A DNA stretch of 39,165 nt from a virus. The DNA lies in the IMG/VR virus record IMGVR_UViG_3300032073_000073, positions 1 through 39,165 of that record. One strand, 5' to 3'. The notes under the pieces were generated by a model. That model was not told the DNA's origin, made no database searches, and worked only from the letters and a program-made list of their open reading frames with translations. This document shows positions 13,790 to 38,586 of this stretch, in pieces. Numbering within the stretch: the stretch's first letter is position 1; each line of letters begins with the position of its first letter. The position numbers and the translations under genes were made by a program.

Positions 13790-13806
13790 ATTATAACCTG
13801 CCTTAA
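13790..13806 (-). promoter_or_regulatory. Late-type promoter, lysis/fibre block
   Basis: On the minus strand the sequence is TTAAGGCAGGTTATAAT, nearly identical to those at 38570 (terS) and 34469 (capsid). TATAAT is a perfect -10; no -35 hexamer is present, and AAGGCAGG directly abuts the -10 region instead. Transcription would start near 13783, before the 61-aa gene. Confidence 0.72.
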
Positions 13807-15458
13807 AATGGCAACTCCTCCATGTCCTCGCTCGCAGGCTTTTCGCCCACATAGTGCTTGACAATGCGGTCAAACTTGCCGTCTGGCCTGATGTCGATCT
13901 CTAGAGTCTTGGCAAGACCCCCTGCACCGATGATGGCCATACACTCTGCAATGGTCTCAGGAGGCGAGGTGCTGCTTCTGGCGTTCCACCATGCCTCAAA
14001 TTTCTCGCGAGCATAGCCCTTGTGGTTGACACACAGCCACTCGGATGCCCACCGCTTTTGACCACCAGTAAGTGTCCTGTCGTCGTCCACAGACAGCTTG
14101 TACTGGACACGCAGGGTAGGCAGCTTGTTCTCGTCCTTGGGAACCCACTCCTTGAATGACTCGTGAACCACGGTCCTCCGCTCAGTCTTCACGGTGATCG
14201 CAGCCTTGGTGCTGACCATGACCTTCTCACGCTCTGGAAGCTCCAGACCGCACTCAGGACACACTCTCTTGCCAGCGGCGAAGATTGCGTAACACTTCGG
14301 GCAAACACGCTTAGGCGGCTCTCCTGTGCCGTCTGTTGGGTCTTTGATGAACCCCTCACCGAATGTCTCGGAGTCGATTGGCCCGAATCTCTCGATGTTG
14401 CCACCGAAGTCGATAATATGGCACTCGTCCTTGTTGGGATACAAGCGAGTCCCACGACCTACGATCTGTGCGAACAGCCCAGCAGACTGGGTGCCACGTG
14501 CAATCACGATAGCATCGCAGCACGGTGCATCCCAGCCAGTGGTTAGGCAGTCCACGTTGACGATCCAGCGTAAGTTTCGGGTCTTGAATCTCTCAAGCTG
14601 GGTCGCTCGGATGATTGGGAGAGTCTCGCCGGTGATAACAGCAGACTGCTCACCCAGAGCCTGTAGCTCGTGGTGGACAAGCTCCGCATGGGCAACACCC
14701 GAACAGAACACTGCGATTGACTTTCGACCCTGCTCGTTGGCTGTCTGTACAATCTCTCGCGTCTTCTGCTCTGTCGCCCAGTATGAGAGGAACTTCGACT
14801 GCTGCTCACCCTGATTGAACTCCCCTGCCGTCACCTTGACGCCTGAGAGGTCCACAGACTTCGTTGGAAGGGTGACAGGCTTAGTTAGAAAGCCATCCTC
14901 AAACATGCGTGAGAGAGGGGCTGTGTAGCTCATGCGATCAAACAGGGAACGCTTGGAGCCGTGTATAACTCCATTGGTCCTGAATGGTGTGGCAGTCACG
15001 CCCATGAACTTACAAGCAGGGTTGATCTCCCGAACACCCCTAATAAGTTGCTGGTACTGACTGTTCTCTTCGAAGCTCACTTGATGTGCTTCGTCAACGA
15101 AGACTAGGTCAATCTTTCCGAACTCTTCTGCACGTTTGAACACAGACTGCACGCCAGCAAACGTGACCTGCTCGCTGGTCTGTCTGATGCCGATGCCAGC
15201 AGAGTACACGCCGGACCTCGACAGACCATCTGGATCGACTTGGCAGTACCTCTCTTGGTTCTGTGCCACCAGTTCCTTGCTGCGATGCAGGACAAGCACA
15301 CGACCACCACGATCAGCAACAGCCTTGCAGATGCCTGCGATCACAACGGACTTGCCAGTACCTGTTGGCAACGCACCAAGCAGGTTCTTGGTCGGATACT
15401 TCCCTGCGTCACTGATGAATGAGTCAATACACTCTTGCTGATACCATCTTAGCTTCAT
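13803..15458 (-). CDS. SF2 DEAH-box DNA helicase with zinc-ribbon, 551 aa
   Basis: Start at 15458 (TGATG overlap with the preceding stop, GGAG upstream). An early RWYQQEC Q-motif-like segment is followed by Walker A GALPTGTGKS (about 28-37), DEAH (122-125), motif III VTATP (about 154-158) and motif VI QIVGRGTRL (331-339). After the helicase core a four-cysteine knuckle (CPKCY...CPECG; Cys386, 389, 400, 403) probably binds zinc. The C-terminal 150 residues are unassigned. This is the DEAD/ResIII class that phages use in replication or recombination, typically next to Sak4- and DUF669-type proteins, as here. It is the last early gene before the terminator. Confidence 0.88.
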   Translation of the reverse strand: MKLRWYQQECIDSFISDAGKYPTKNLLGALPTGTGKSVVIAGICKAVADRGGRVLVLHRSKELVAQNQERYCQVDPDGLSRSGVYSAGIGIRQTSEQVTFAGVQSVFKRAEEFGKIDLVFVDEAHQVSFEENSQYQQLIRGVREINPACKFMGVTATPFRTNGVIHGSKRSLFDRMSYTAPLSRMFEDGFLTKPVTLPTKSVDLSGVKVTAGEFNQGEQQSKFLSYWATEQKTREIVQTANEQGRKSIAVFCSGVAHAELVHHELQALGEQSAVITGETLPIIRATQLERFKTRNLRWIVNVDCLTTGWDAPCCDAIVIARGTQSAGLFAQIVGRGTRLYPNKDECHIIDFGGNIERFGPIDSETFGEGFIKDPTDGTGEPPKRVCPKCYAIFAAGKRVCPECGLELPEREKVMVSTKAAITVKTERRTVVHESFKEWVPKDENKLPTLRVQYKLSVDDDRTLTGGQKRWASEWLCVNHKGYAREKFEAWWNARSSTSPPETIAECMAIIGAGGLAKTLEIDIRPDGKFDRIVKHYVGEKPASEDMEELPF

Positions 15459-15847
15459 CACTTGCTCCACTTGTCATAGTTCTCTGATGCACCTTTGATG
15501 TCACGCCAACCCTCCGGTGTAGTCCACCCGAAAGCGTTAAGCGTCCTGTCAATCTCCTTGTTGCTGACGCCACCCTCAGCGAGCAGTATGAGCAATGCAC
15601 AGGGATGCACGCAATCCCATGAACTGTGGTTGCTCTCAGGCTCTGGCGGTGCGTCAGCAAAGTGAACAACCTTGCTGGCAGAGACAAGTTGCTTGCACTG
15701 CTTCAAGGTTCCTGTGAACTCCCCAACACTAAAGTTGAACTGGCCGTGACGCATTGCAACGTGGGACTCGCCAGTGTCAGTGTTTGTTATGATGAAGTTC
15801 TTGACCCCATTCTCGTCCAACACGCCTTTAACTTTAACATTACTCAT
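15458..15847 (-). CDS. Hypothetical protein, 129 aa
   Basis: I use the ATG at 15847 (AAGGAG upstream, ATGA overlap). Residues 1-75 form an apparent beta-rich domain (VKVKGVLDENGVKNFIITNTDTGESHVAMRHGQFNFSVGEF). Residues 85-129 are a helical part (LLILLAEGGVSNKEIDRTLNAFGWTTPEGWRDI) that resembles a winged or HTH-like fold. DNA binding is possible but not demonstrated. It is directly coupled to the helicase gene. Confidence 0.6.
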   Translation of the reverse strand: MSNVKVKGVLDENGVKNFIITNTDTGESHVAMRHGQFNFSVGEFTGTLKQCKQLVSASKVVHFADAPPEPESNHSSWDCVHPCALLILLAEGGVSNKEIDRTLNAFGWTTPEGWRDIKGASENYDKWSK

Positions 15848-16047
15848 ATTCCGCTCCTTATGTTTTTCCAAGTCCAAGTGTCTCGATACCCCTTCGCAAA
15901 GTCTGCTCTCTCGCTGGGAGTAGGGAGTTGCTCAAGGTATCTGAAGTATGGCCGACTGCACATGAAGTTTATTGGTGCAGACAGCGTTTCACCCAGCTTG
16001 ACGTACAGTGCCTCTGCTAGGTCTGCTCCCTTCTCGTATGCGTCCAT
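15844..16047 (-). CDS. Hypothetical protein, 67 aa
   Basis: This is a small, mixed-charge, probably helical protein with aromatic content in its second half (RPYFRYLEQLPTPSERADFAKGYRDTWTW). The start overlaps the preceding stop (TGATG). I see no motif; function is unknown. Confidence 0.55.
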   Translation of the reverse strand: MDAYEKGADLAEALYVKLGETLSAPINFMCSRPYFRYLEQLPTPSERADFAKGYRDTWTWKNIRSGI

Positions 16048-16292
16048 CAGATGCCTCCATTTGGGTTGTGTGTCGCTGCATCGTACTTCTTAAAGCACGA
16101 GAAGTGTACGTCAGGGACATCATCAAGTATCCACTCTGAGATACTTAGTGTTCGCAAGTCCTCCGAGTGATTAGCTCCCTGCTGGCATCCACAGACGATA
16201 CAGGTCTCTGGAATCCACGGGATGCTGACCACCGATAGTGACCACAGCAGGAGCAAGCTCAGGAACGCCAGTGCTTCTAGTGACTTTCTCAT
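16047..16292 (-). CDS. Exported or membrane-anchored Cys-containing protein, 81 aa
   Basis: Residues 1-25 are a signal anchor or signal peptide (MRKSLEALAFLSLLLLWSLSVV). After it come CIVCGCQQG and later HFSC, four cysteines and several histidines that could bind a metal or form disulfides. Its start overlaps the previous gene by four bases (ATGA). An exported protein within an early block is unusual; superinfection exclusion or envelope modification are possibilities without direct support. Confidence 0.6.
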   Translation of the reverse strand: MRKSLEALAFLSLLLLWSLSVVSIPWIPETCIVCGCQQGANHSEDLRTLSISEWILDDVPDVHFSCFKKYDAATHNPNGGI

Positions 16293-16540
16293 TTGACTAC
16301 CTTCAGTAAAGTGTTGGGGGTTTCGATTACTCTTGCACTATCATAGCGTCTTGGGTCAGCAAGTCCAGTGTCTAGGCGGTCACGACTGGTATTATATGTA
16401 CCTTTTTCGTCCCGAAGGCTAACCCACTCGACATCGCCAATGGTTACCTGATCGACAACCATTGACTCGTGACTGCCGTACCGCGATGGTGCTTCAACGA
16501 CTGGCTGGGCTTTCTTCTGTGCTGGTTTCTTAAATGGCAT
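16289..16540 (-). CDS. Hypothetical protein, 83 aa
   Basis: The N-terminus is Lys/Ala/Pro-rich (PFKKPAQKKAQPVVEAP), and the rest has alternating strands ending TLLKVVK. AGGAGCAAGAG stands before the ATG. It is the first gene after the promoter at 16620-16647. No family is recognised. Confidence 0.6.
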   Translation of the reverse strand: MPFKKPAQKKAQPVVEAPSRYGSHESMVVDQVTIGDVEWVSLRDEKGTYNTSRDRLDTGLADPRRYDSARVIETPNTLLKVVK

Positions 16541-16619
16541 CTCTTGCTCCTAGGGTAAGTGAAAAAAGGGTTAGGCAGTTTTGCGTGATACCCAGCACGT
16601 TTGTCCTCGTTATGTCCCT

Positions 16620-16647
16620 ATTCTACAGGTAGTATCGTGCGAGTCAA
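16620..16647 (-). promoter_or_regulatory. Early promoter, CTGTANAAT type
   Basis: On the minus strand: TTGACT, 16 bp, TAGAAT, with CCTG immediately before the -10. It would drive 16540 down to the helicase. It shares spacer length and CTGTANAAT with the promoters at 20269 and 20551. Confidence 0.7.
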
Positions 16648-16676
16648 CAACAATCTTTACATATTCCAGAATTATT

Positions 16677-16961
16677 TTACCGGATTATTATCAGGGCTGG
16701 ACTACGCCAATTCCACCACATGACTGGCGGATTCCTGTAGAGATGCCCATGAGGCATAGCCACGTTCACGTTGCTTCTGTAGCTCAAAGGCGTCCAGCTA
16801 TAATTGCGACCAGACCGTACCTCGGACAATCTGTGCCGTGCCTCAACTCGTCGTGCTTCCCTGCGTGACTGATAGTCCTGCCACTTGGGGTTGTCTCGGT
16901 AGTCGGCGTATGCACTGGCTGGGGTCGCGAGTATCGCGATCAACAAAAAGTTTCTAAACAT
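16677..16961 (-). CDS. Small secreted basic protein, 94 aa
   Basis: Start at 16961, preceded by AAGGAGA (a strong RBS); the longer frame runs through the hairpin cluster. The N-terminus MFRNFLLIAILATPASAYA is a textbook signal peptide with an AYA cleavage site. The mature part (about 75 residues) is Arg/Tyr/Trp-rich (RREARRVEARHRLSEVRSGRNYSW...VMWWNWRSP) and ends hydrophobically (ALIIIR). Periplasmic location is likely. I know no family. Placed between the DUF669 gene and an early promoter, it may be an early-expressed envelope-acting protein, for example an exclusion factor; this is speculation. Confidence 0.65.
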   Translation of the reverse strand: MFRNFLLIAILATPASAYADYRDNPKWQDYQSRREARRVEARHRLSEVRSGRNYSWTPLSYRSNVNVAMPHGHLYRNPPVMWWNWRSPALIIIR

Positions 16962-16995
16962 CTTACTGTTCTCCTTGGTATCAAAAATAGAAAGG

Positions 16996-17079
16996 TGAGG
17001 CGGCAGGACTCGCACCTGCCACGTGGCTACTGACCCCACGGGGTTGGTCAATTATGACTTATGACCAGATGTCGCCTCC
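16996..17079 (-). other. tRNA-like hairpin cluster overlapping the end of the DUF669 gene
   Basis: On the minus strand GAGGCG (17073-17078) can pair with CGCCTC (16997-17002) across about 82 nt, like an acceptor stem. Just inside the 3' strand is a 5-bp stem with a 7-nt loop, GCAGG-TGCGAGT-CCTGC, which looks like a T-arm (GC instead of TC in the loop). TGACC/GGTCA and CCAC/GTGG hairpins lie between. I could not fold a normal D-arm or a 7-nt anticodon loop, and CCA is absent. It may be a decayed tRNA, a tRNA mimic or merely an RNA-processing or terminator structure. Confidence 0.35.
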
Positions 17080-17556
17080 TCCATCGGCTGGTGGAAAGCT
17101 CGTGTCCTCAACCTGACAGTCTTCGCTGCAAGGATTGAAGTAGAAGTCTCGGCTCGGACCCCACTGAGGGTCTTTGCTTGGCTTGGTCTTGATGACCAAC
17201 TCAAACTTGGTGCCGACCTTCTCAAGAAACTTGGGAAGGCTAGGAATACCAGAACCGCCGACTGCTGCCCACAACTGAGCAATACGCTGCTGACCGATCT
17301 CCCCGTGCTTGGGGCTACCACTGTTGGCGTACACCAAGTCGTCAAACTCTCGACGATTGTTGTACTGACCACCCTCGTACTTGAACTGAAACTTCAGGTA
17401 CTCGATCTCGTTACCAGCCTTCGACGTTCGGCTTGTGTCCTCTACCTCAAGGATAGAAGCACAGAACTTCCCGTCTGGTACTGGAGTGAACTCACGAGGT
17501 GCGTTTGCTGCTGAGCTTGCTGCGTCGAACTGCTCTTGTGAAAGATTGAAAGCCAT
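17059..17556 (-). CDS. DUF669-family protein, 165 aa, probable ssDNA-binding partner
   Basis: The layout matches the phage DUF669 family: an N-terminal FTPVPDGKFCASILEVEDTSRTSKAGNEIEYLKFQF strand segment, a central IGQQRIAQLWAAVG helix, and a C-terminal strand region (KFELVIKTKPSKDPQWGPSRDFYFNP). A flexible acidic tail ends GGGDIWS. Such proteins are usually encoded between a Sak4-type ATPase and a helicase, as here, and are thought to act in recombination or replication, with an SSB-like acidic tail. The last 20 bp overlap the tRNA-like structure. Confidence 0.78.
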   Translation of the reverse strand: MAFNLSQEQFDAASSAANAPREFTPVPDGKFCASILEVEDTSRTSKAGNEIEYLKFQFKYEGGQYNNRREFDDLVYANSGSPKHGEIGQQRIAQLWAAVGGSGIPSLPKFLEKVGTKFELVIKTKPSKDPQWGPSRDFYFNPCSEDCQVEDTSFPPADGGGDIWS

Positions 17557-17578
17557 AGTGCTAATGCTCCGATTAAAG

Positions 17579-18295
17579 TTACTTAGAAACGTCTGAAAGG
17601 TAGGACTCGATGTCCGAAAGATTGTAGCTAGGTTTCAAGCCCTGCTTGCGATGCTTGGCTTGATACGCTGGTGTGCCCTCAGTGTAGAGAACACGGTCAC
17701 CTGTTTCAACCCCAACGCTGACCTGCTTGAGACCGACCTGCTTGTTCTGAGTGAGAACGACTGTCTGGGCGAACAAAAGTTCATCGCACCACTCACAAAC
17801 AGATGCTGCTGCATGCTTAGTCAACTTGGGCTGATATGCTGACCAACTTGTTCCGTCTGGTCGCGTGACGGTTTTGATCTCGGCATGACCAATCAAGACG
17901 ACATCTTTGCCTGCGGCGATCACTGAATCCAGTAGTCGTAGGATGGAGGATACTCTACGATTGATCTCCACCGCACCACGTCCGAAGGCGTCTTGAAAGT
18001 TCTCTTTATCAAGATCACGCTGAACCAACTTCTCAGTCCAGTCAATGCTGTCGAGGACAAGCGTATCAAAGTCGCTCTCGCGAACTTCCTTGACTGCTGC
18101 CACAACATCCTTGGCCGATTCTAGCAACGCTGTTCGCGTCACGTCAAGGTCGCCACACCCGTTCTCAGTTGGCAGGAAGATTGGGTTGCCCCACTTGCTT
18201 GCTGCCGTTGACTTGCCAACACCGTGAGTGCCGTATAGAAAGGTGCGTCTCGCACGCTTCTGTGGACCGCTCGTTGTGTTACTCAAAAAACTCAT
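17579..18295 (-). CDS. Sak4-like RecA-fold ATPase (single-strand annealing), 238 aa
   Basis: Walker A YGTHGVGKST lies at 21-30 and Walker B FDTLVLDSID at 76-85; a further strand VVLIGHAEIKTV lies near 135-146. Length and the short RecA core without extra DNA-binding lobes match phage Sak4-type recombinases, which act with an SSB-like protein during recombination-dependent replication. DUF669 follows 22 bp downstream. Its own promoter is at 18326-18353. A generic phage AAA nucleotide-binding protein is the conservative name. Confidence 0.82.
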   Translation of the reverse strand: MSFLSNTTSGPQKRARRTFLYGTHGVGKSTAASKWGNPIFLPTENGCGDLDVTRTALLESAKDVVAAVKEVRESDFDTLVLDSIDWTEKLVQRDLDKENFQDAFGRGAVEINRRVSSILRLLDSVIAAGKDVVLIGHAEIKTVTRPDGTSWSAYQPKLTKHAAASVCEWCDELLFAQTVVLTQNKQVGLKQVSVGVETGDRVLYTEGTPAYQAKHRKQGLKPSYNLSDIESYLSDVSK

Positions 18296-18325
18296 TTTAG
18301 CTCCTGTTGTTGCTTGTGAGATGAC

Positions 18326-18353
18326 ATTATAGCGAATTACCAGATCCTGTCAA
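18326..18353 (-). promoter_or_regulatory. Sigma70-type promoter for the Sak4-like gene
   Basis: On the minus strand TTGACA, 16 bp, TATAAT: both hexamers are perfect consensus. It lies between the 18358 stop and the 18295 start. Confidence 0.82.
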
Positions 18354-18357
18354 ATGC

Positions 18358-18786
18358 TTAACTTCTTTTTTCTTCGTGGTACTCTGAAAGCTCATTCAAC
18401 CACTCCTCGAAGTGGTCTGCAATCTCAACGGCAGGCATGTGCCAGAGGTCGATCACGTGACCGACAAGCTCCCATACCCAGTCTGCACAGGTCTCCTCTG
18501 AATCCATGCCGTCGAACGGGAATGCCGACCCGCTCACCGTGGGGTCAAAGTCGTACTCAACAGCAACAGCAGCAACCTCTTTGATGAATAATTCTGCTAG
18601 TGCCTGCTGCATCGAGTCAACCGATGTGACGTTCACCGATATGAGGTCCTTCAGCCTCTCTGAGGCGTCATACTGGTCACCAGACGCGAGACCCAGAACC
18701 TGAGCCTCTTGCCTCTCATTGATATAAACAACCTGTGCCCGTGTCCAGAAGATCGCTTCCTTTGTCTTGCTGTCTATTCTTCGCAC
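18358..18786 (-). CDS. Hypothetical acidic protein, 142 aa
   Basis: A largely helical, acidic protein with a basic start (MRRIDSKTKEAIFWTRAQVVYINERQEAQVLGL). The Trp-rich helical C-terminus (CADWVWELVGHVIDLWHMPAVEIADHFEEWLNEL) resembles small phage proteins of unknown role. It overlaps the upstream gene by 13 bp. No function is assigned. Confidence 0.6.
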   Translation of the reverse strand: MRRIDSKTKEAIFWTRAQVVYINERQEAQVLGLASGDQYDASERLKDLISVNVTSVDSMQQALAELFIKEVAAVAVEYDFDPTVSGSAFPFDGMDSEETCADWVWELVGHVIDLWHMPAVEIADHFEEWLNELSEYHEEKRS

Positions 18787-19172
18787 TGTTCGCTCCTCTT
18801 TTGTTCCAAGTGTACGTTAATGATCGCTGCTTGCAGTTCCTCGCGGTGAGGTGCTGCCTGTATGAACGTATTATAGCCGAGAGCCTCGTCGCTGTCAAAG
18901 CGTTCAGGTCCGTTTTCGGTCAGCACAGTGACGCTGAAACAAACCTCTTTTCCTAGCTCCTCGTCTTGGAAGTCGTCGAAGATGATCGTGTTGACACACT
19001 CACAGTCTTCATAGCCAACGAGTGCCAGCCCTCGTGAGCCTTGGTAGTCGTACTGGAAGTGCCTAGAGGCTTGCCCGAAGAATCGCCTTCTAGCACGCTG
19101 GGAAGCATCGGGACGCAGCCACTCGTACAGCTTCACAGCTTCGTCAATGTCTTTGGCTTGCTTTGTTATCAT
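18774..19172 (-). CDS. Hypothetical protein, 132 aa
   Basis: N-terminal helices with a basic segment (SQRARRRFFGQASRHFQYDYQG) precede a strand-rich middle (IIFDDFQDEELGKEVCFSVTVLTENG) and an acidic C-terminal helix. No family is recognised. A perfect-consensus promoter sequence is embedded in its codons at 18870-18898. Confidence 0.6.
   Translation of the reverse strand: MITKQAKDIDEAVKLYEWLRPDASQRARRRFFGQASRHFQYDYQGSRGLALVGYEDCECVNTIIFDDFQDEELGKEVCFSVTVLTENGPERFDSDEALGYNTFIQAAPHREELQAAIINVHLEQKRSEQCEE
18870..18898 (-). promoter_or_regulatory. Intragenic consensus promoter
   Basis: Inside the 18774-19172 reading frame the minus strand reads TTGACA, 17 bp, TATAAT, a perfect sigma70 consensus with ideal spacing. 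It could boost the 18358-18786 gene and those below. Chance from codon use cannot be excluded. Confidence 0.6.
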
Positions 19173-19229
19173 CGCTTAACACCTGTCCTTTTCTCTGATT
19201 TAATTTGGTCAATTATGAAACCCAGTTCG

Positions 19230-19370
19230 CTACTTGCTACGTAACTCATCTTCGTCTCTCCATGTGTCCATGTATCGGTCGTCTGTGTGGATGCACCATG
19301 CAACCACCGCCACGGCTGAAAGGATGACCAGTCCATTCAGCACTAGAATTGCCTGAGTGTGTGGGTCCAT
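19230..19370 (-). CDS. Small single-pass membrane protein, 46 aa
   Basis: The ATG at 19370 overlaps the preceding stop (TAATG), a coupling used throughout this phage. Residues 6-27 (QAILVLNGLVILSAVAVVAWCI) form a clear membrane helix followed by a hydrophilic, acidic tail (DRYMDTWRDEDELRSK). The role is unknown; such micro-membrane proteins of early regions often modulate the host envelope or exclusion. Confidence 0.6.
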   Translation of the reverse strand: MDPHTQAILVLNGLVILSAVAVVAWCIHTDDRYMDTWRDEDELRSK

Positions 19371-19702
19371 TAGTTCACCTTGCTTGGTAACGCGAAACCG
19401 ATCCAGCGACCTTTACGCTCAAGTGCATCCAGTGCAAGCTCGAAGGCGATACGCTCTGACACTACATTGCAGTCCAAGCCCTTGATTGCCTCATCTGCTT
19501 CTTTGAAAGCAGCGATGACCTCGTCACGCATCCAGACCTGCCAACACCTACGCTTGGTGCCACATGGATGAGAGACCACCCAGTAAGCCTTCCCATCACC
19601 TCTTGGGTAGCCACCTACGCAGTGGTGGGTGATTGGGAAGTCGTCGCCAGCACTGTGTGCCTGAACGCCGCCTGCTGCAAAGCCGTTGTGTGCCTTAGTC
19701 AT
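19370..19702 (-). CDS. Hypothetical protein, 110 aa
   Basis: Residues 15-60 are rich in His, Gly and Cys (HSAGDDFPITHHCVGGYPRGDGKAYW, SHPCGTKRRCWQVW), possibly a metal-binding patch. Then comes an amphipathic helical part (EVIAAFKEADEAIKGL...IAFELALDAL) and a short strand end. No known family. The N-terminal half could be a compact zinc fold. Confidence 0.6.
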   Translation of the reverse strand: MTKAHNGFAAGGVQAHSAGDDFPITHHCVGGYPRGDGKAYWVVSHPCGTKRRCWQVWMRDEVIAAFKEADEAIKGLDCNVVSERIAFELALDALERKGRWIGFALPSKVN

Positions 19703-19704
19703 AA

Positions 19705-19959
19705 TTAGTTCTCCAATGGAAGGATAAGGTTCTCAAGTTGTTCTAGTGTACGCGATAAGTCTGCAATCTGCAAGTACAGGTCGCTGCATCGAGCTTCGTC
19801 TGCAAAGCAGAGCTTCTCGCCCTCGTCTTCTCTGGCGATGATCTCGCCACGCTCACCGTGAGCCTTCTGCAACTTAATGTTGAAGTGCTTAATGAGCGAC
19901 TCAACACGTGCATTGTGGTTCACGGGATGGTGATAGTTCTGGAGGTGTGCTGCTGACAT
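19705..19959 (-). CDS. Hypothetical coiled-coil protein, 84 aa
   Basis: The sequence is charged and helical, with a C-terminal heptad-like stretch (DLYLQIADLSRTLEQLENLILPLEN) and an N-terminal His-rich segment (HLQNYHHPVNHN). It lies two bases upstream of the next gene. Function is unknown. Confidence 0.6.
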   Translation of the reverse strand: MSAAHLQNYHHPVNHNARVESLIKHFNIKLQKAHGERGEIIAREDEGEKLCFADEARCSDLYLQIADLSRTLEQLENLILPLEN

Positions 19960-19970
19960 CTCAGTATCTC

Positions 19971-20222
19971 CTAGTTACATGGTGTGAATTTGACTTTGAC
20001 CTTGCGTTTCTTGTTGCAGATCGCCTTGGTCTGGTAAACGTCAACAATGTCGATAAGCTCATCAAGCTCGTCTTGGTTCAAGCATAACGCCTCGAAGCGT
20101 CCGCCGTCAACCCCTACGCTGAACCAAATTACTCGATTGTCTGAATTTCCTCTGATCTCATGCTCGACGAACTCGACGCCTCGGATAGAGTAGAACGCTT
20201 GGAGGAGTGTATCTTTTGTCAT
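19971..20222 (-). CDS. Hypothetical protein, 83 aa
   Basis: An alpha/beta-looking small protein with a basic C-terminus (NKKRKVKVKFTPCN). AAAGGAAC precedes the ATG, and its promoter and leader resemble those of the 20505 gene. No family is recognised. Confidence 0.6.
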   Translation of the reverse strand: MTKDTLLQAFYSIRGVEFVEHEIRGNSDNRVIWFSVGVDGGRFEALCLNQDELDELIDIVDVYQTKAICNKKRKVKVKFTPCN

Positions 20223-20268
20223 CTTAAGTTCCTTTGTGGGAGGTAAGTTGTTTCTGCGTTACCCTTCC

Positions 20269-20296
20269 ATTTTACAGATATCGGCAGGAGGGTCAA
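20269..20296 (-). promoter_or_regulatory. Early promoter, CTGTANAAT type
   Basis: On the minus strand TTGACC, 16 bp, TAAAAT, with TCTG before the -10. The leader then carries AAACAAC, ACCTCCCA and CAAAGGAAC, also seen after the 20551 promoter. Confidence 0.7.
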
Positions 20297-20307
20297 GCCG
20301 AATTTAA

Positions 20308-20505
20308 TCAATTTTCTGTTTTTCGCAGAATTTCTTTCGCGAGCTTCGTAAACGCCTCCTGTGACGTTGGACCGCCTTCGAGGGCAAGTTGGTCAATCAG
20401 GTCGTGTGCGGCCCTTACAGCGGCTGCTGGTGCCCCGTATGTGTTTCCTGTGGACCATACACGGTAGGCGAATCGAACACGGGCGAGTTGGTCATCTGAT
20501 AACAT
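20308..20505 (-). CDS. Hypothetical protein, 65 aa
   Basis: I prefer the ATG at 20505 because the promoter at 20551-20578 would start transcripts near 20544, leaving the longer frame without a leader, while AAAGGAACC precedes the inner ATG. The protein is helical (SDDQLARVRFAYRVW...AAAVRAAHDLIDQLALE...EAFTKLAKEILRKTEN). No family is recognised. It is the first minus-strand early gene. Confidence 0.6.
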   Translation of the reverse strand: MLSDDQLARVRFAYRVWSTGNTYGAPAAAVRAAHDLIDQLALEGGPTSQEAFTKLAKEILRKTEN

Positions 20506-20550
20506 GGGAGGTTCCTTTGCTGGGAGGTGGGTTGTTTGTGTCATGCCCCC

Positions 20551-20578
20551 ATTGTACAGGTCTCATCGGCCATGTCAA
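20551..20578 (-). promoter_or_regulatory. First minus-strand early promoter, CTGTANAAT type
   Basis: On the minus strand TTGACA, 16 bp, TACAAT, with ACCTG before the -10. It is divergent to the plus-strand promoter at 20657, with about 80 bp between them. Confidence 0.75.
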
Positions 20579-20656
20579 ACGCAACATTGAGTTTTTTTGG
20601 GATTTCTTTTTTACCCCGTAAATAACGTGGCTCCAAAACAAAGCGATCTAAAGGTT

Positions 20657-20685
20657 TTGACTTATCCGTTCAGATATGTTATCAT
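20657..20685 (+). promoter_or_regulatory. Promoter of the plus-strand island
   Basis: TTGACT, 17 bp, TATCAT. The -10 hexamer forms the first bases of the inverted repeat at 20680-20735. Confidence 0.75.
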
Positions 20686-20735
20686 CTTGTCTTCTGGACA
20701 AGTTGCTTCAATCTTGCCGAGAAGACAAGATGATA
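20680..20735 (+). repeat. 16-bp perfect inverted repeat in the resolvase leader
   Basis: TATCATCTTGTCTTCT (20680-20695) is perfectly complementary to 20720-20735 across a 24-nt loop. It starts in the -10 box and covers the expected transcription start, so it may be an operator; most of it would also form a strong 5' mRNA hairpin. GACAAG recurs several times around it. Confidence 0.8.
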
Positions 20736-20760: not shown

Positions 20761-21201
20761 ATGATTGACACGAGCAAATTACTGTTCACTGTAAAGGTGA
20801 ATCACAAGCTGAAAAATAACAACAATGGTCAGACAAAACACTGGTCGTCATCACATTCTGAAAGAAAGAAGTGGATGAAGGCACTAGAGACAGCCGAAGT
20901 AGAGACAGAGACTGGCTGCATGTTTGACTACCATGACTTCCTTGCGAACGTACTAGAAGGCGAGCCAATGGCTCAGAAGGTGGGAATAGAGGTACACAGG
21001 GTCTTAGGTCCACGTGAGCGTCACTGGGATGCAGATTCTGTGCTTAGGGGGTCAGCCAAGCAGCTTGTGGATAGCTTGGTGGAAACTAAGCTGTTGACAG
21101 ATGATAACATCAAGTGTATACTGTGGGCGTTGGGAACTCAGTCGGCGGAACGTTCTGCCGAGTCCCACGTCTTGGTTCGCGTTTTTGGAGCAGAAGTATG
21201 A
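20761..21201 (+). CDS. rusA: RusA-like Holliday junction resolvase, 146 aa
   Basis: The C-terminal half shows the RusA pattern: RHWDADSVLRGSAKQLVDSLVETKLLTDDNIKCI, with Asp90, Asp92, Lys100, Asp104 and Asp114/115 at the expected places for the metal-binding acidic cluster and catalytic lysine. The N-terminal 50 residues (NNGQTKHWSSSHSERKKWMKA) correspond to the usual basic lead-in. These enzymes cut four-way junctions before packaging. It is the first gene behind the promoter at 20657 and its stop overlaps the phosphoesterase start (ATGA). Confidence 0.82.
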   Translation: MIDTSKLLFTVKVNHKLKNNNNGQTKHWSSSHSERKKWMKALETAEVETETGCMFDYHDFLANVLEGEPMAQKVGIEVHRVLGPRERHWDADSVLRGSAKQLVDSLVETKLLTDDNIKCILWALGTQSAERSAESHVLVRVFGAEV

Positions 21202-22905: not shown

Positions 22906-22933
22906 TTGACACTTAGTCAATGGCGGTTATACT
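22906..22933 (+). promoter_or_regulatory. Promoter of the ParB-like gene
   Basis: TTGACA, 16 bp, TATACT, just after the preceding stop and 42 bp before the ATG at 22975. Confidence 0.8.
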
Positions 22934-30931: not shown

Positions 30932-30948
30932 TTCTTTTTTATTCCTGT

Positions 30949-32036: not shown

Positions 32037-32398
32037 TCAGTCGCTCTCATCTCAACCCTTAGAGACCTGTTGTCACCGGCAACGTCACGAACAGAGACAA
32101 TACCGTAGACAACGCCGTCTATTGTGGCCCTGCACTGTGAGTTGATCGAACCTTTGATGGCAGGGGAATCCCCGATTGCTACCTTCTGGGTGCTTTCTTT
32201 TGTCTGCACACCATCGAGGATTTCCCCTCCACCAAGATCCACAAGCTCGCACCACCAACCGTCGATCACAGTGGTCCATGATCCCGTGGTGTAAGAACGC
32301 TGCCCATACTCGTCGAGTGCCGTTGGAGGGGACTCGATCAGAGCTTGATAGTTGCGGCGTCCGATTCGCTTGCGGTTAAATCCAGTTAACTTAGACAT
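32033..32398 (-). CDS. Head-tail adaptor (SPP1 gp16-like), 121 aa
   Basis: A beta-barrel small protein: basic N-terminus, WTTVIDGWWCELVDLGGGEILDGVQTKESTQKVAIG and a closing YGIVSVRDVAGDNRSLRVEMRATE. The layout is typical of phage head-tail adaptor/stopper proteins that follow the connector. The start overlaps the connector gene by 8 bp. Confidence 0.75.
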   Translation of the reverse strand: MSKLTGFNRKRIGRRNYQALIESPPTALDEYGQRSYTTGSWTTVIDGWWCELVDLGGGEILDGVQTKESTQKVAIGDSPAIKGSINSQCRATIDGVVYGIVSVRDVAGDNRSLRVEMRATE

Positions 32399-32981
32399 AC
32401 TTCTCGCTCAAGAGTTTTCGGACAAGCATCTCGTAAGTCTTGCCATTATCGCTGTTTGACTGATTCTCTTGGGCTGGGTCAAAGTAGGCACGCCCAGTCT
32501 CAAGCAAGATAGCTTGTTTGATAAGTGGGTTCACACAGTCACTGTCTGCCACTCCACAAGTGAAGTTCACAAACACCTTGTCGCTGCGTGTTGCTGCCTT
32601 GACTTCAGGCCAAAGGCTGTCGGACTCGTTGAACACTACCTGCCTCCCAGCGGAGAAAGAGTAGCTGCTTGGGTCCAACGTCTGTGTCACGCTGTCTGAA
32701 TCAACATACGTGATCGAACTGACAAGTGTTGCTGGCTTGACCATCAACTCGATGGGGTAACCCTCTGCTGGAAAGCAGGCCATTGCCTGCTGCCAAGTCG
32801 CTTGGAGGATAGAGCGGTTAATGTCACGTTCTAGTTTCTCGGTAGACGCTTGCACGAGCAATGTGATCTCAGTGTCTTGGCCTGAGCCAGAAACTCTAAG
32901 ATGATTTTTTGCTTCGTCGAGGCTTACTGCTAGACCGCTTGGGTTTGACGTTCTTGTCAGAGTCCAGTCTGGTTTTTGCAT
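32391..32981 (-). CDS. HK97 gp6-like head-tail connector, 196 aa
   Basis: ATG at 32981 (GAGG upstream) is preferred over a GTG five codons earlier. VSLDEAKNHLRVSGSGQDTEITLLVQASTEKLERDINRSILQATWQQAM is the gp6/connector N-terminal helical signature. Strands with SITYVDSDSVTQTLDPSSYSF follow, and the closing helix is PLIKQAILLETGRAYFD. It forms the ring below the portal. Confidence 0.85.
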   Translation of the reverse strand: MQKPDWTLTRTSNPSGLAVSLDEAKNHLRVSGSGQDTEITLLVQASTEKLERDINRSILQATWQQAMACFPAEGYPIELMVKPATLVSSITYVDSDSVTQTLDPSSYSFSAGRQVVFNESDSLWPEVKAATRSDKVFVNFTCGVADSDCVNPLIKQAILLETGRAYFDPAQENQSNSDNGKTYEMLVRKLLSEKYV

Positions 32982-33105
32982 CTTTAACTTCCTCACAAAT
33001 GTCTAAAGAGATCAAGGTTCTGGCTATACCTAAGTTTTCCAGAACCACAACAGCCCCCGACTCGTGATTGAGTCGGGGGCATGGTTTTACAAATCTTACT
33101 TTCAC
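32896..33105 (-). CDS. Small head-region protein, 69 aa, GTG start
   Basis: It starts with GTG six bases after the capsid stop. KVRFVKPCPRLNHESGAVVVLENLGIARTLISLDICEEVKDAK has the beta-hairpin pattern (KP..R...G.vv.l....A..Li..gi.ee) of small proteins found after the capsid gene in HK97-type phages; the tail is Lys/Arg/Ser-rich. It overlaps the connector gene by 86 bp, more than others in the operon. A strong hairpin (33053-33080) lies in its 5' codons. Confidence 0.6.
   Translation of the reverse strand: MKVRFVKPCPRLNHESGAVVVLENLGIARTLISLDICEEVKDAKTRLDSDKNVKPKRSSSKPRRSKKSS
33053..33080 (-). other. Strong hairpin just after the capsid gene
   Basis: GCCCCCGACTC / GAGTCGGGGGC, an 11-bp perfect stem with a 6-nt loop, within codons 9-18 of the small ORF. 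No T-run follows on the minus strand, so it is not a canonical terminator; an mRNA 3'-end stabiliser or partial attenuator after the capsid gene fits. Confidence 0.7.
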
Positions 33106-33110
33106 GTTAA

Positions 33111-34427
33111 TTACGCAAGAGTGATTTTGCTAAGGACTTCTGGGTTAGCCGACTTCAACGCGATACGCTGAGTGCAGATAACGCCAACTTGGTCATTCAC
33201 TGCGAACAACTCGTTGAGAACGCGGAAGTTCAAGCTACGACGATCACCGAAGTAGTGAGAAACGCCAAGGTCACCGAAGACGCAAAGCAGGTCGCCGCTT
33301 GAGTTTGCACCAGCACCTTTCATTGCGTTGACCAAGTTCACTGGGTATCCAAGCAAGGTTGGGCGAACGCCAGCAACCAAGTCAGCTTGGCTGTTGCCAC
33401 CGGCTGCATTGAGGATGTCGCGGACTTGACCGTTCCAAAGCGTTGGGCTCATGTACCACTGGTGGTTCAGGCCACGCTCTTGACCAGCAGCAACAACAGC
33501 AGCCGTCAGGTCGGTGATTGCAAGGTCACCAACAGTTGCCAATGCACCAGCACGGTCGTAGTTGGCAATGTCGCTATCGCCTTCGATTCCGTCAGCGTAC
33601 AGGGAAGCGTGGCCGCTGAACAATGCGTTGTCTTCAGCTTTGGCGAACGACCAAGCCAAGTCACGAACGATAGTGTCAGTCATGCTGATCAAGCTGTCTT
33701 CGCTGATCTCGGTGCTCATCTTCACAAGACCGGCCATTTTCTGTGCCGTCAGTGAAACTTGTGCGAAGGTCAGATCGGAAGCCGTGATTGCTTCTGCTTC
33801 GTTCGGGTAAAAGACAGTTGCGTGTCCAGCCAACTTAGGAACGGTCCAAGTAGGTGCACCCATGACGATTCGACGGCAGACGTTACGACAGACGCCGTAC
33901 TCTTCGATCAAGTTGATCAGCTCGGAAGCCAGAGGCGTTGGAACGGTGTACGAACCAAGCTCAGGATTTGTACCAGTTCCGGCGTCATCGCCAGTCAGTG
34001 CAGCCATGTAGCTTTGGGCTTTGCGGTCGCCAGCGGTGGCGAGAAGGAATTTACCAGCGGTGTAAGCATCGTCGCTCGAAGCGAAAACACCCGACTTGTT
34101 GTACTTAGCAGCGGCAGGGATAAGGTCCATTTTCTCAGTCTCTGTTTCTTGGATAGAAGGTTCGATAGATGCTTCAGCCTCAACGGGGGCATCAGCGGGC
34201 TTGACGCGAGAAGCAACAATCTCGTCGATACGAGCTTGAACCTTCTCAAGACGCTCTTGTTCTGCTTTCAGGTTATTGAACTCAGAGTCAAGTGCTTCGA
34301 TTTGGGCGAGTGTGGCTTCAGCCTCATTGCCCTCTTCGAGAGCAACGTCACTAAGAGCCTCAACCTCGACACTGATTGCCTCAAGGCGAGCAGCGATTTC
34401 AGGAAGTCTTTGCATGGTTAGTTCCAT
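33111..34427 (-). CDS. HK97-fold major capsid protein, 438 aa
   Basis: Residues 1-75 are a heptad-rich coiled coil (RLEAISVEVEALSDVALEEGNEAEATLAQIEAL...), the delta/scaffolding domain that the head protease removes. Around 100-125 is the likely cleavage zone (ETEKMDLIPAAAKYNKSG). The mature part has the E-loop/P-domain pattern of this fold, from GSYTVPTPLASELINLIEEYG through WTVPKLAGHATVFYPNEAEAI to QRIALKSANPEVLSKITLA. The ATG at 34415 has GGAA upstream and is an alternative start. A late-type promoter (34469) lies upstream. Confidence 0.9.
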   Translation of the reverse strand: MELTMQRLPEIAARLEAISVEVEALSDVALEEGNEAEATLAQIEALDSEFNNLKAEQERLEKVQARIDEIVASRVKPADAPVEAEASIEPSIQETETEKMDLIPAAAKYNKSGVFASSDDAYTAGKFLLATAGDRKAQSYMAALTGDDAGTGTNPELGSYTVPTPLASELINLIEEYGVCRNVCRRIVMGAPTWTVPKLAGHATVFYPNEAEAITASDLTFAQVSLTAQKMAGLVKMSTEISEDSLISMTDTIVRDLAWSFAKAEDNALFSGHASLYADGIEGDSDIANYDRAGALATVGDLAITDLTAAVVAAGQERGLNHQWYMSPTLWNGQVRDILNAAGGNSQADLVAGVRPTLLGYPVNLVNAMKGAGANSSGDLLCVFGDLGVSHYFGDRRSLNFRVLNELFAVNDQVGVICTQRIALKSANPEVLSKITLA

Positions 34428-34468
34428 GTGAAAGGTAAGTTTTTAGTTAAGTTGCCCAGACGGGTAGT

Positions 34469-34485
34469 ATTATAGCCTGCCTTAT
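34469..34485 (-). promoter_or_regulatory. Late-type promoter, capsid gene
   Basis: On the minus strand ATAAGGCAGGCTATAAT; same element as at 38570 and 13790, with C for T before TATAAT. No -35. Start near 34462; capsid ATG at 34427. Confidence 0.7.
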
Positions 34486-35117
34486 TTCAGGTTCATCTTC
34501 ATCCGTCTGGCAGTAGCTTTTGCCTTGGCTGAGACAGCCAGCGGCGAGAAAGCGTGTACTTTTGGTAGTTCAGCTTCAGCCTTGGGCCTCTGCTTCCGCT
34601 CGACCTTGTAGATGCTGTCAACAAAGCCCTGAGCCAGAGCCTCTTCTGCATCCATCCAAGTCTCTGCGTCCATCATGGCAAGCAGTTCTGGCTCATCCTT
34701 GCCTGTTCGCTCGGAGTAGGAGGCGGCGATGTCCTTGTCCATCAGCTCCATGACATCTGCGGTACTTCGGAAGTCCTTGCAGTTGCCCATAGCCACGGTC
34801 CAGCATCGGTGGATCATGTACTTGGCATTGCTGTTGATAATGACCTTGTCTGCTGCACAGGCGATGACGGTTGCAATCGAGGCAGCGATTGTGTCGATGT
34901 GGATCGTCACTTCGCCCTCGTGCTGCATGATCGCGTTGTACATGGCAAGCCCATCAGAGACGCTTCCGCCCTGTGAGTCAAGGTGGATCGTCACGTCAGC
35001 ACCAGCGTGGTCCTTCAGGCAATCGCGAAAGTCGTCTGCACTAATGCCACCGTCGAAGTCCCCAATGGGTCCACGCATCTCGATGGTCTGCTTCTCTGGA
35101 TTAGTCTCAAGCCTCAT
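34482..35117 (-). CDS. ClpP-like head maturation protease, 211 aa
   Basis: The ATG at 35117 lies inside the 3' end of the portal gene. ClpP-fold features: IHLDSQGGSVSDGLAMYNAI, nucleophile Ser80 in TIAASIATVIA, His103 in YMIHRCW, and ETWMDAEEALAQGFVDSI near 152-170, the ETW block of phage ClpP proteases. Active-site residues are all present. It would cut the capsid delta domain and itself. The last 30 residues are basic. Confidence 0.9.
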   Translation of the reverse strand: MRLETNPEKQTIEMRGPIGDFDGGISADDFRDCLKDHAGADVTIHLDSQGGSVSDGLAMYNAIMQHEGEVTIHIDTIAASIATVIACAADKVIINSNAKYMIHRCWTVAMGNCKDFRSTADVMELMDKDIAASYSERTGKDEPELLAMMDAETWMDAEEALAQGFVDSIYKVERKQRPKAEAELPKVHAFSPLAVSAKAKATARRMKMNLK

Positions 35118-36387
35118 CGGAGGACTCCTTCTCTTCTTTAGGTTCTTCGGTAGTTTCTTCGTTCTCTTCTGGCTTAGATGCCTCTGCAATCTCCAACGCC
35201 ATCTCGTGCGGCAACTTGTCGCCGCCATCAAGAGGATCAAGTCCGTGCATGAAGCGAATCTCGTTGATTGTTGCAACACCTTGCTGGTTCAGTTGCAGCG
35301 TGTACTGTGCCAAGCTATTTGGGTCACCCTGCATAAGCTGAGTGGTATCAAACTTCGCCTCCAAGCTGCCGTATGGCATCAACTTTGTCTCGATCTCTTC
35401 GGTCCATTTTGCGAACCAACGTCCAAGGCAGTTGTTGATGTATGCCGTGTTACGCTCAGAGATAGAGCGATAGGTCTGTCCACTGTCGTCGCCCATGATG
35501 CTTTCAAGGCCGAACAACAGTGCAATCTCTTCACGCTGGAAGTTACGCTGCTCGAGGAACTGTGCATCGCTTGCAGAGACAGGGAGTGTAGTTGCCTTCA
35601 TGCCATCACGCAAGAGTCCGGCACGACCACTGTTGTCCAGTCCAGCGTGCTTGCTGTTGAATGCGTCAAGGAAAGACTTGGCGTCCTCGTTGCTTCTAAA
35701 CATTCCCTGCGGAGCTTCCAAGAGCAGTGCAGGCTTTCCGCTGTTGGCAATCGTGATCGCAGCACCTTCTTGTCCAGCCTGAGTCAGGCCGAACACATCG
35801 CGTGCCATATCAATCACGTGCATCCCCCAGATGCCATTGTAAGACGTGTTCATCACGTGCATGACATCTCGGTCGGGGATCTTGTAGAACTCGCCAGACT
35901 TCAATTTGATGGGCAGAGCGTCCTGTGTGGTTCCGCTGTCCTGCGTGACGAGGTGCCACTTCTGGCCTTCGACCAACATCGTCTGACAGTTCTGTGGCAT
36001 GATCGGGATAAGACCCACAGGCGTGCCATTGCTGTTACGCTGAATGTATGCACGACCATTACCAGCGATGAGAGCATGAACCATCATGATCTCTTTAAAC
36101 TGGTACGCGGTCATCATCTCGTTAGGCTTCTTGTTCAAGAGCCTGAATGTGTTGTTGTACAGCTTGGGACGAGTCCCGTCAGCGTTGTATTGGCAGATGT
36201 CGATGGGCATCTGAGCAATGTGTCCACTGATCTTGTTTACTGCATAGGTGACGGGAGCCAAGCCAAGTGCTGACTGCACAGTGACGCTCACGCCTGTCTT
36301 GGACTTCCTGATACCAAACGCTTCCATCAGCCACTCGCTGGGGTTACGTGTGTTCGAGAAAGCCTTGAATGCTTTTCCTAATCTCAT
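35107..36387 (-). CDS. HK97-type portal protein, 426 aa
   Basis: VQSALGLAPVTYAVNKISGHIAQMPIDIC, LLNKKPNEMMTAYQFKEIMMVHALIAGNGRAYIQR, RDVMHVMN, and SISERNTAYINNCLGRWFAKWTEEI are characteristic of HK97-like portals. The C-terminus is disordered and acidic (ASKPEENEETTEEPKEEKESSDEA). Start overlaps the terminase stop (ATGA). Confidence 0.92.
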   Translation of the reverse strand: MRLGKAFKAFSNTRNPSEWLMEAFGIRKSKTGVSVTVQSALGLAPVTYAVNKISGHIAQMPIDICQYNADGTRPKLYNNTFRLLNKKPNEMMTAYQFKEIMMVHALIAGNGRAYIQRNSNGTPVGLIPIMPQNCQTMLVEGQKWHLVTQDSGTTQDALPIKLKSGEFYKIPDRDVMHVMNTSYNGIWGMHVIDMARDVFGLTQAGQEGAAITIANSGKPALLLEAPQGMFRSNEDAKSFLDAFNSKHAGLDNSGRAGLLRDGMKATTLPVSASDAQFLEQRNFQREEIALLFGLESIMGDDSGQTYRSISERNTAYINNCLGRWFAKWTEEIETKLMPYGSLEAKFDTTQLMQGDPNSLAQYTLQLNQQGVATINEIRFMHGLDPLDGGDKLPHEMALEIAEASKPEENEETTEEPKEEKESSDEA

Positions 36388-38081
36388 ACGATGAATACAT
36401 CTCCATTGCTTCTACCTTTGGCGTGCATAGCACGAGAGAAAGCCATAAGTAGGGCAATTAACGGGTCAATTTTTTGCGACGAGCTTGCTTTATCCATCAT
36501 CCATCTGTCTGAACGATCCCGAACTGCAACTGCATTACTCAGGCACCACCGCAGCAAGGGAGATCCATCGTGTGTGAATCTTCCATCTGCCAGTGCCTGC
36601 CTGAACTCGGAGATCGGCTCATTGAAATGACGGGTGGTTTGTGGCATCGCCGCGATTACCACACCCTCTTGTTCTACTTGCTCACCAAACTGTTGTGCTT
36701 GGTAAGGGTCAATTGCAGCATCTGAAGCATAGTAGCCCCAGTAGTTGTCAACGAAGTCCGCTTGGAGATCAGTGATGGGTGAGTTAGTCACCTTAATCAT
36801 CCCTGCGTCGATCCAATTGCAGAAAGGAACTTCATTCAGATTTCTGTTTGTGTTTCTTGATATGTACGCCCAAACTCTTCCCTCGTACCTGTAGATGGGT
36901 CTGCTCTCATCATCGCTCTCGCCTGTGTCGAAGCGTGCAACGAATGCCGCTGCTGCAAGGTCGTCACGCCCTCCAAGGTCAATTCCGCCGCCCACTGCCT
37001 CTGCTGTCCTAGCCCAGTCGCTTATCTCGCCTTTGCACTTGTCGAAGTCGTCTAGGTCGAAGATACGCTCTGTGCTACTCACAAGGACGTTAGCATGATA
37101 ACGCTTGAATCTATTGAGTGCCTGCGGGTTGCTCAGTGCGGGCTTGATCTGCGACCGAAGGAACTCGATGTCCATAGACACGCCAAGGTTTGGGTTAGCC
37201 TTGATCCATGTGTCTTCATCAAATGGGTCATCATCTTCATCAAGCTCATATATCAACGCGAACAGCGACTCTTCTTCGATTGACTCTTCCAGTATCTGCT
37301 TGGAGAAGTTGATCTCCTCAAGCCAGATGTGGGACTGGTCGTCACCCGCTGTTGTTGTAGTGATCGTCAGAGGCTGAACACGAGAACCAGATCCGGTCAT
37401 CATCGTGTTGTGGAACTTACGGTGGACCTTGGTGAACGCATGGGTCTCGTCCAGCAAGACAAGAGCGGGGTTCAAGCCATCGAAGGGACGGTCAGAACCA
37501 ACTGCTTGAATGTTGCCACCGTTGTGTGCGAATGTGATAATCTTATTGGCCACATTGCTGCCCTCTCTCAGGAGGTCGCTCTGGTGACGCATGCGGAGGC
37601 ACTCAGCGAAGATAACCTTCTCGCTCTGCTCACGCTTCGTTGCAGCCATAATTACTTGAGCTTGGCCCTCTGGCTCGTTGGTATAGGGGTTGAAGTCAAA
37701 CCCTGCCATGAACAATGCTATGCCAGACGCCAACGTGGACTTACCCTGCTTCCTTGCCATTGTCCAGAATACTCTGCGGAACCTACGGCCATTGCCATCG
37801 TTACGCTGCCACCCGAATATGTTGGCAATACCGAACGCCTGCCAGTCGGACAGGTGAAACTCGTTCTTGGCGTCCTTACCAATCGAGTGCCTAAGACACG
37901 CTGGGAACCATTGGCAGACAACCGCTGCCTTGCTCTCGTCGAAGTGATATGGAAAGCCATCGCTGCCCTGACGCTCTAGATCCCTGCGGTATCTCTCCAC
38001 AGCCAATCTTACGTACTTGCCAACGACAATCTCACCAGACTCGACAGCCTGAGCGTAGCGTTCCCAAGGTGACAACTCCAT
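36384..38081 (-). CDS. terL: Terminase large subunit, 565 aa
   Basis: ATPase motifs: Walker A-like ARKQGKST (109-116), Walker B ALVLLDETHAF (about 206-216), coupling TTTTAGDDQS downstream. Nuclease-domain acids include GGIDLGGRDDLAA (about 367-379) and SSSQKIDPLIALLMA near the end. HK97/Terminase_1 type, full length. The ATG at 38081 overlaps the terS stop (TGATG). Confidence 0.93.
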   Translation of the reverse strand: MELSPWERYAQAVESGEIVVGKYVRLAVERYRRDLERQGSDGFPYHFDESKAAVVCQWFPACLRHSIGKDAKNEFHLSDWQAFGIANIFGWQRNDGNGRRFRRVFWTMARKQGKSTLASGIALFMAGFDFNPYTNEPEGQAQVIMAATKREQSEKVIFAECLRMRHQSDLLREGSNVANKIITFAHNGGNIQAVGSDRPFDGLNPALVLLDETHAFTKVHRKFHNTMMTGSGSRVQPLTITTTTAGDDQSHIWLEEINFSKQILEESIEEESLFALIYELDEDDDPFDEDTWIKANPNLGVSMDIEFLRSQIKPALSNPQALNRFKRYHANVLVSSTERIFDLDDFDKCKGEISDWARTAEAVGGGIDLGGRDDLAAAAFVARFDTGESDDESRPIYRYEGRVWAYISRNTNRNLNEVPFCNWIDAGMIKVTNSPITDLQADFVDNYWGYYASDAAIDPYQAQQFGEQVEQEGVVIAAMPQTTRHFNEPISEFRQALADGRFTHDGSPLLRWCLSNAVAVRDRSDRWMMDKASSSQKIDPLIALLMAFSRAMHAKGRSNGDVFIV

Positions 38082-38563
38082 CACGAGCCCTTCATCGCTT
38101 TCAGAAGTGATGATATAGACTCTTTTTCTTTCTTCCCTGTGTCGCTAGTAGCAACAGAGAGTCTGGCCCTTGACGAAGGGGATAGGCCCAATTCTCCGAG
38201 AAGTTTTAAGTGCCGGTCAGCCAACTTATGGAAGGTAACGCTTTGTGTACTTGTCTTTCCATCTTCGTTCTCATGACCATGCTTGGCGACATAGATTGCT
38301 GCTTTCTTCCACTCGGAGTACGTGACTACGTAATTAGTCAATAGGTGCAGGTCAGTCTGCGAGAGGATTCCGCAATCCTTGAGGACATTTACAGTCTCAT
38401 CCCAGACAGCAGATGCTGTCTCGTCGATTTCAACAAAGTCGGGCTTTACAGGGATGCCATCACTGCCGAGAATAGTATGTGTGGGTCGGCGTGCAGGATT
38501 CTTCTTGTAAGAGCCATTCGACTCGGCCACTGAAGTGGCTAATGGTTTTCGTCCTCGCGTCAT
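38081..38563 (-). CDS. terS: Terminase small subunit, P27 family, 160 aa
   Basis: Start GRKPLATSVAESNGSYKKNPARRPTHT is the usual basic P27-type N-terminus, followed by VKPDFVEIDETASAVWDETVNVLKDCGILSQTDLHLLTNYVVTYSEWKKA, the recognisable helical core, and the LLGELGLSPSSRARL motif. The expected transcript start of the late promoter (38570-38586) lies on the ATG, so the mRNA may be leaderless. First gene of the structural operon. Confidence 0.9.
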   Translation of the reverse strand: MTRGRKPLATSVAESNGSYKKNPARRPTHTILGSDGIPVKPDFVEIDETASAVWDETVNVLKDCGILSQTDLHLLTNYVVTYSEWKKAAIYVAKHGHENEDGKTSTQSVTFHKLADRHLKLLGELGLSPSSRARLSVATSDTGKKEKESISSLLKAMKGS

Positions 38564-38569
38564 GGCATC

Positions 38570-38586
38570 ATTATAACCTGCCTTAA
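38570..38586 (-). promoter_or_regulatory. Late-type promoter, terminase/structural operon
   Basis: On the minus strand TTAAGGCAGGTTATAAT, identical over its length to the site at 13790. The -10 box ends six bases before the terS ATG. Confidence 0.75.

Follow-up and report, generated by a model that had tools for sequence, protein, structure and literature searches.

The late promoters of phage P1 have a good -10 hexamer, no -35 hexamer and a repeat near -22. Eleven of them share one site for a phage activator (Lpa), in the form of a 9-bp inverted repeat (PMC10695390). In lambdoid phages, the QBE lies between the -35 and -10 hexamers of the promoter (PMC6606751). The middle (MotA/AsiA) and late (gp55) systems of T4 redirect host RNA polymerase to promoters with only a -10, and the promoters of T7-type polymerases carry a short, phage-variable recognition block next to a TATA.

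This article describes a putative class of late promoters in a 39,165-nt stretch of viral DNA (IMG/VR record IMGVR_UViG_3300032073_000073, hereafter the window) and in its relatives. In logic the class comes nearest to P1 Lpa, as both comprise several late promoters with a -10 and no -35; it differs in having three sites rather than 11, in an element that varies between related genomes, and in lacking the 9-bp inverted repeat, the window element AAGGCAGG being not self-complementary (complement CCTGCCTT) and having no shared upstream arm (within-genome flank identity 0.36). In place it comes nearest to lambdoid Q/QBE, with a site in the promoter spacer that differs between phages; the shared bases at -20 to -14 sit where a QBE would, as a candidate site only and without a -35. 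The likeness extends, though solely at the third site, to a terminator shortly after the promoter (in the window and in the relative G021), whereas the pause element and the -35 are absent, no Q21 or lambdaQ homologue was found in eight family contigs, and there are three promoters instead of one. As in T4, host polymerase would be redirected to -10-only promoters; however, a MotA box at -30 is absent from the window clade, the box of its sister clade is different and lies near -40, and neither TATAAATA nor a sigma-like protein was detected in the genomes searched. The variable block next to a TATA recalls promoters of T7-type polymerases, but the TAnnnT form of the -10 and its distance of 6-8 nt to the ATG of the terminase small subunit gene (terS) fit sigma70. 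Because P1 Lpa and Q/QBE each fail on a defining feature (the inverted repeat in the one case, the pause element and Q homologue in the other), the promoters belong to neither group and are filed as a separate variant of factor-dependent phage late promoters.

The promoter element of the window and its setting

In the whole window there are exactly three copies of TAAGGCAGG-Y-TATAAT, all on the minus strand, and each marks the head of a gene block (Table 1): terS-terL-portal-protease, the capsid gene, and a lysis/fibre block that follows the helicase and contains a papain-like protease and fibre-like genes. The core AAGGCAGG-N-TATAAT is exact at 38570-38584, 34469-34483 and 13790-13804, with a T directly before each copy, and all other sites in the window have at least three mismatches to it. 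This class accounts for three of the eight TATAAT hexamers in the window, and an 8-N-6 word was present three times in one of 30 Markov shuffles and in none of the other 29. The first-pass annotation had described a shared 17-bp element at the terminase, capsid and lysis/fibre blocks, with a perfect TATAAT, no -35 and a spacer motif adjoining the -10. The three minus-strand copies and their places were borne out, as was the promoter form, the copies being exact and the best match to TTGACA at the three sites, over spacings of 14-20, reaching only 3/6; the length was not, since -13 is T or C and the element thus measures 16 bp. At two of the late sites TATAATG makes an ATG codon, but neither terS nor the first lysis-block gene starts there; the latter gene has a leader of about 118 nt.

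Table 1. Promoters, leader and principal genes of the window, in window positions
Feature	Position	Strand	Remarks
Early-type promoter TTGACA-17-TATGAT	38605..38633	+	Divergent from terS, towards prim-pol ORF running off the contig
Putative late promoter 1 (terS)	38570..38585	-	TAAGGCAGGT-TATAAT; -10 at 38570-38575; ATG of terS 6 nt on
Terminase small subunit (terS)	38081..38563	-	Terminase_4 PF05119, 2.3e-15; ATG 38563
Terminase large subunit	36384..38084	-	TerL_nuclease/TerL_ATPase
Portal protein	35107..36387	-	PF04860
Putative late promoter 2 (capsid)	34469..34484	-	TAAGGCAGGC-TATAAT; TAA is the head protease stop codon
Major capsid protein	33111..34427	-	PF05065, 1.5e-34; ATG 34415/34427, relatives aligning at the second (34415)
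Early-type promoter TTGACA-16-TATACT	22906..22933	+	Precedes ParB-like gene
Early-type promoter TTGACA-17-TATACT	21094..21122	+	
Early promoter TTGACA-16-TACAAT	20551..20578	-	
Early promoter TTGACA-17-TATAAT	18870..18898	-	12/12
Early promoter TTGACA-16-TATAAT	18326..18353	-	12/12; precedes Sak4-like gene
SF2 helicase	13803..15470	-	PF04851/PF00270; ends the early leftward operon
Putative late promoter 3 (lysis/fibre block)	13790..13805	-	TAAGGCAGGT-TATAAT; TAA is the helicase stop codon
Leader of third transcript	13685..13783	-	Hairpin 13766-13729, then intrinsic-terminator-like hairpin 13727-13685 (GGGGTCGTGG...CCACGGCCCC-AGTCTTTTTTTT)
Lysis/fibre block, first ORF	13480..13665	-	ATG 13665; AAAGGAG upstream

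Sites of the form TTGACA-N16-18-TATAAT number six in the window at 11-12 of 12 matches, against 0.1 expected, and all lie in or facing early regions, the early region being incomplete because the window contig stops inside prim-pol. With TTGACA at the early-region sites and none at the late ones, early and late promoters are of different kinds within the window genome. The sequence TTTGACANNGCCGATGA is common to the early promoters at 38605-38633 (plus strand) and 20551-20578 (minus strand), so the early class may carry a spacer operator of its own. Elsewhere in the window, the papain-family cysteine protease (PF00112) of the late lysis/fibre block, at 11656-12459 on the minus strand, is kept in relatives, and tandem palindromes resembling Fur boxes (GAGAATCATTCTCA / GATAATGATTATC) lie near the left end, at 60-190; an Rfam search of the window gave no match.

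Relatives and their phage-specific motifs

No near match to the window was found among sequenced phage records, nor did a TerL search with a single sequence give one. The exact 15-mer retrieved 119 stretches from viral contigs, mostly coding for K-A-G-Y-N (the in-frame reading of AAGGCAGGNTATAAT) and none of them related, and a helicase alignment proved too general, its results being swamped by unrelated phages. A capsid search of viral contigs yielded 55 loci, and a terminase search more. The relatives found in this way are uncultivated, have capsid identities of 48-84%, and mostly keep the order prim-pol / terS-terL-portal-protease-capsid-tail / RusA-phosphoesterase / Sak4-helicase / lysis-fibre; the genomes compared are metagenomic contigs throughout. 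The window is placed in a little-known aquatic phage group, an uncultivated family of tailed phages. A host and prophage scan of genome contigs gave one short match of 67%, in a binned Chloroflexi MAG, and one of 32% in the planctomycete Zavarzinella. The locus concerned (L443), a scaffold of Zavarzinella formosa (Planctomycetes) with identities of 32% for TerL, 29% for the portal protein and 24% for TMP, may give a weak hint of host range.

Upstream of the relatives' capsid genes a -10 stands at the same place, and AAGGCAGG is not kept. The spacer sequence adjoining the -10 is particular to each phage (for example TTTGAGTAG, TTTAACCGAG, TTTAGTGCAC, CTGACGCT, AGATCGTGA or AGGCGCGG), and the terS and capsid promoters, which are about 4.1 kb apart, carry one motif per phage: TTTTGAGTAG-Y-TATAAT in G001, TTTAACCGAGC-TATAAT in L244, TTTAGTGCAC-TATAAT in L213, TTTATCGTATGT-TATGMT in L284, GCTGACGCT-K-TAAAAT in G021, AGATCGTGA-TAGACT in G024, AGGCGCGG-TAGGAT in L300 and TTTAGGCGTGG-TACMRT in G002.

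This sharing was tested with one genome per cluster of >80% terS identity (n = 13; an 18-genome version was also run), each pair being scored by its best match over the 12 bases before TAnnnT plus the three inner bases, to a maximum of 15. Own terS/capsid pairs had a mean of 11.85/15 against 6.5 for cross-genome pairs, the own-pair mean being reached by none of 100,000 permutations in a test that demanded TAnnnT and thus imposed the invariance of -12, -11 and -7, and the own partner was best or tied in all 13 genomes. An 18-mer search without the TAnnnT anchor recovers the same sites. Identity at -20 to -14 was 0.77-1.00 within genomes versus 0.26-0.59 between them; at the inner -10 bases -10 and -9 it was 0.92 within, versus 0.30 and 0.56, respectively, between; in the flanks it was 0.30-0.36. 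Recent copying is unlikely, given short, widely spaced sites with unrelated flanks; selection through one trans-acting factor would explain the within-genome sharing. The sharing is weak in G031 and G032, which were dropped as support for strict sharing, as their terS, capsid and third sites have only T-rich bases and TA(A/G)AAT in common.

A promoter-like site is also present at the syntenic place behind the helicase in the relatives inspected (G021, G003, G004, G031, G032, G033, L427 and L435-L440). In G021 this third site reads TAGCGCTG-TAAAAT, a 12/14 match to that phage's own element, and in G003 it reads GTTTTAGGC-TATAAT, identical (15/15) to the element of its capsid promoter. TTGACA is present in the late promoters of the G004 clade, the third site included. 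The sister clade of the window's (G003, G007, L223, L226 and L427) has TTTAGKC-like bases before the -10 and, exactly 30 bp 5' of it, a GATGTTT box, mismatched at no more than one base, at 8/9 sites (background 0.0014 per position), a typical place for activators overlapping the -35; the window clade has no shared upstream box like GATGTTT.

Ten of the 13 genomes have 6-8 nt between the end of the terS -10 and the ATG; the others are L225 (41 nt), L247 (51 nt) and L248 (21 nt). Sigma70 spacing would put the first transcribed base at or next to the A of the ATG, which makes a leaderless terS mRNA probable. In many relatives (L214, L231, L253, L288 and others) the capsid leader opens with a small hairpin, for example GGCAGGGGACTATCCCCTGCC, which is possibly an mRNA stabiliser.

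Competing readings of the shared motif

A motif that is the same within and different between phages suggests a fast-evolving control protein made by the phage. The reading that we consider probable is of a late promoter class used by host RNA polymerase together with a sequence-specific, spacer-reading factor that the phage encodes and that has diverged between phages. TAnnnT, the A and T of which are the two positions flipped by sigma70-family factors, points to host polymerase; a helper is suggested by the absence of a -35 and by inner -10 bases that are often poor, and a sequence-specific protein by the common bases at -20 to -14. Dependence on a factor, proposed in the first-pass annotation, has been made much more likely by the relatives, in which the element is common within a genome and divergent between genomes.

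The main rival, which we judge unlikely, takes the spacer motif for a phage repressor's operator, overlapping the -10 in the manner of immunity operators, so that late promoters would be kept off early and the motif would diverge with the repressor. Phage-specific, co-diverging sites are indeed typical of repressors, and an operator lying over the -10 would extend the sharing into the inner -10 bases, as is observed. Promoters without a -35 and with a poor -10 (TAGGAT, TAGACT, TAAGAT) should, however, be weak unaided, the second box of the sister clade is at the exact distance of an activator, and there are just two or three sites per genome, all at late genes.

Antitermination of the Q type, in which a Q-like protein on the spacer would make polymerase ignore terminators, is less probable again. 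Besides the QBE-like position of the motif, it has in its favor the third promoter, the transcript of which in the window meets hairpins and an apparent intrinsic terminator within 100 nt. G021 has the same leader layout (L341, 8950-9100), a hairpin and then, soon after the start, a stem resembling an intrinsic terminator, T run included, ahead of the first ORF, and the G004 clade has a related GCGTG...CACGC hairpin with the T run present or absent; there are hints here that the lysis-block leader hairpins may act as a further layer of control or as a small RNA. Against antitermination, no -10-like pause element is found, as TAnnnT is missing from the 24 nt past each of the three -10 boxes; terS is seemingly leaderless, with no early terminator; and lambda pR' has a -35, unlike the late promoters here. 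Proteins of the Q21 and lambdaQ families were likewise not found: PF06530 and PF03589 matched in none of eight family contigs, which are incomplete, the controls matching in E. coli.

Little probability, and marginally less than for antitermination, attaches to plain extended -10 promoters served by host sigma70 alone, the spacer sharing being incidental. Since position -14 is G in 10 of the 13 genomes and several have TG at -15/-14, some promoters might work on host sigma alone, but this leaves unexplained why -20 to -15 is common within and different between genomes, and the window copies have GG, not TG. That the motif is a ribosome-binding site (TAAGG-C-AGG being like TAAGGAGG, TAAGGCAGG equaling TAAGGAGG with one inserted C, and an ATG following at two of the three sites) or a coding coincidence is barely credible and was dismissed, as the capsid copy has no adjoining start codon, relatives have non-Shine-Dalgarno motifs in place of AAGGCAGG, and the sites lie at or past stop codons, in non-coding DNA.

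The candidate factor and its significance

In the favored reading of a phage-encoded factor acting with host polymerase, the sequences show the form and placement of the promoters, a motif common within genomes and divergent between them, and the missing -35, whereas start sites, late timing, factor and mechanism are inferred. Each genome has one putative late class of about 16 bp, made up of T-rich bases, then some 7 phage-specific bp at -20 to -14, then a TAnnnT -10, with no -35, and its three places are constant: before terS, before the capsid gene and, after the helicase gene, before the lysis/fibre block. Host RNA polymerase would melt the -10, and the factor would read the spacer, more likely as an activator or co-sigma touching -20 to -14, or, as a second form, as a small phage sigma-like factor, which would account better for the sharing of the inner -10 bases; the two forms are inseparable by sequence. 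Produced from early operons with ordinary TTGACA/TATAAT promoters, the factor would couple late genes to early expression, and the motif would be constant within a phage and change between phages because factor and sites evolve together.

The earlier statement that no known activator is recognizable held when profile searches were made of the early proteins of the window and G021 and of eight family contigs. The early proteins showed no convincing DNA-binding family, and a scan of the window's proteins gave no activator match. Sigma70 regions 2 and 4 (PF04542, PF04545) were found in none of the eight contigs, with positive controls, a search that a diverged gp55-like factor could escape. No Ogr_Delta zinc finger scored over the cut-off in the eight contigs, controls working, the single match (in G004) being of 12 bits; a search for T7-type single-subunit RNA polymerase gave no match, its control being silent too. 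The ParB-like pair suggested in the first-pass annotation as a candidate activator was rejected because it has no homologue in the family contigs tested, though promoters of the same kind occur there. A weak HTH_38 match in G021 was set aside, the window having no counterpart.

At the same genomic places, the late promoters of relatives are -35-dependent, bipartite (with GATGTTT) or spacer-only. One further reading, possible yet on balance doubtful, is that a new kind of specificity factor reads -20 to about -9, inner -10 bases included, in replacement of the -35, and that its specificity has changed repeatedly along with its three promoters. On that reading late promoters would have moved between the three forms within the family, and the family would provide a natural set in which factor and promoter specificities are paired.

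Knowledge of factor-dependent late promoters usually comes from single phages; here one family gives more than 10 natural versions. Comparison of these genomes could find the factor and its recognition code, and the versions may include orthogonal promoter/factor pairs. In uncultivated phages they would also allow late genes, and leaderless terS mRNA, to be predicted.
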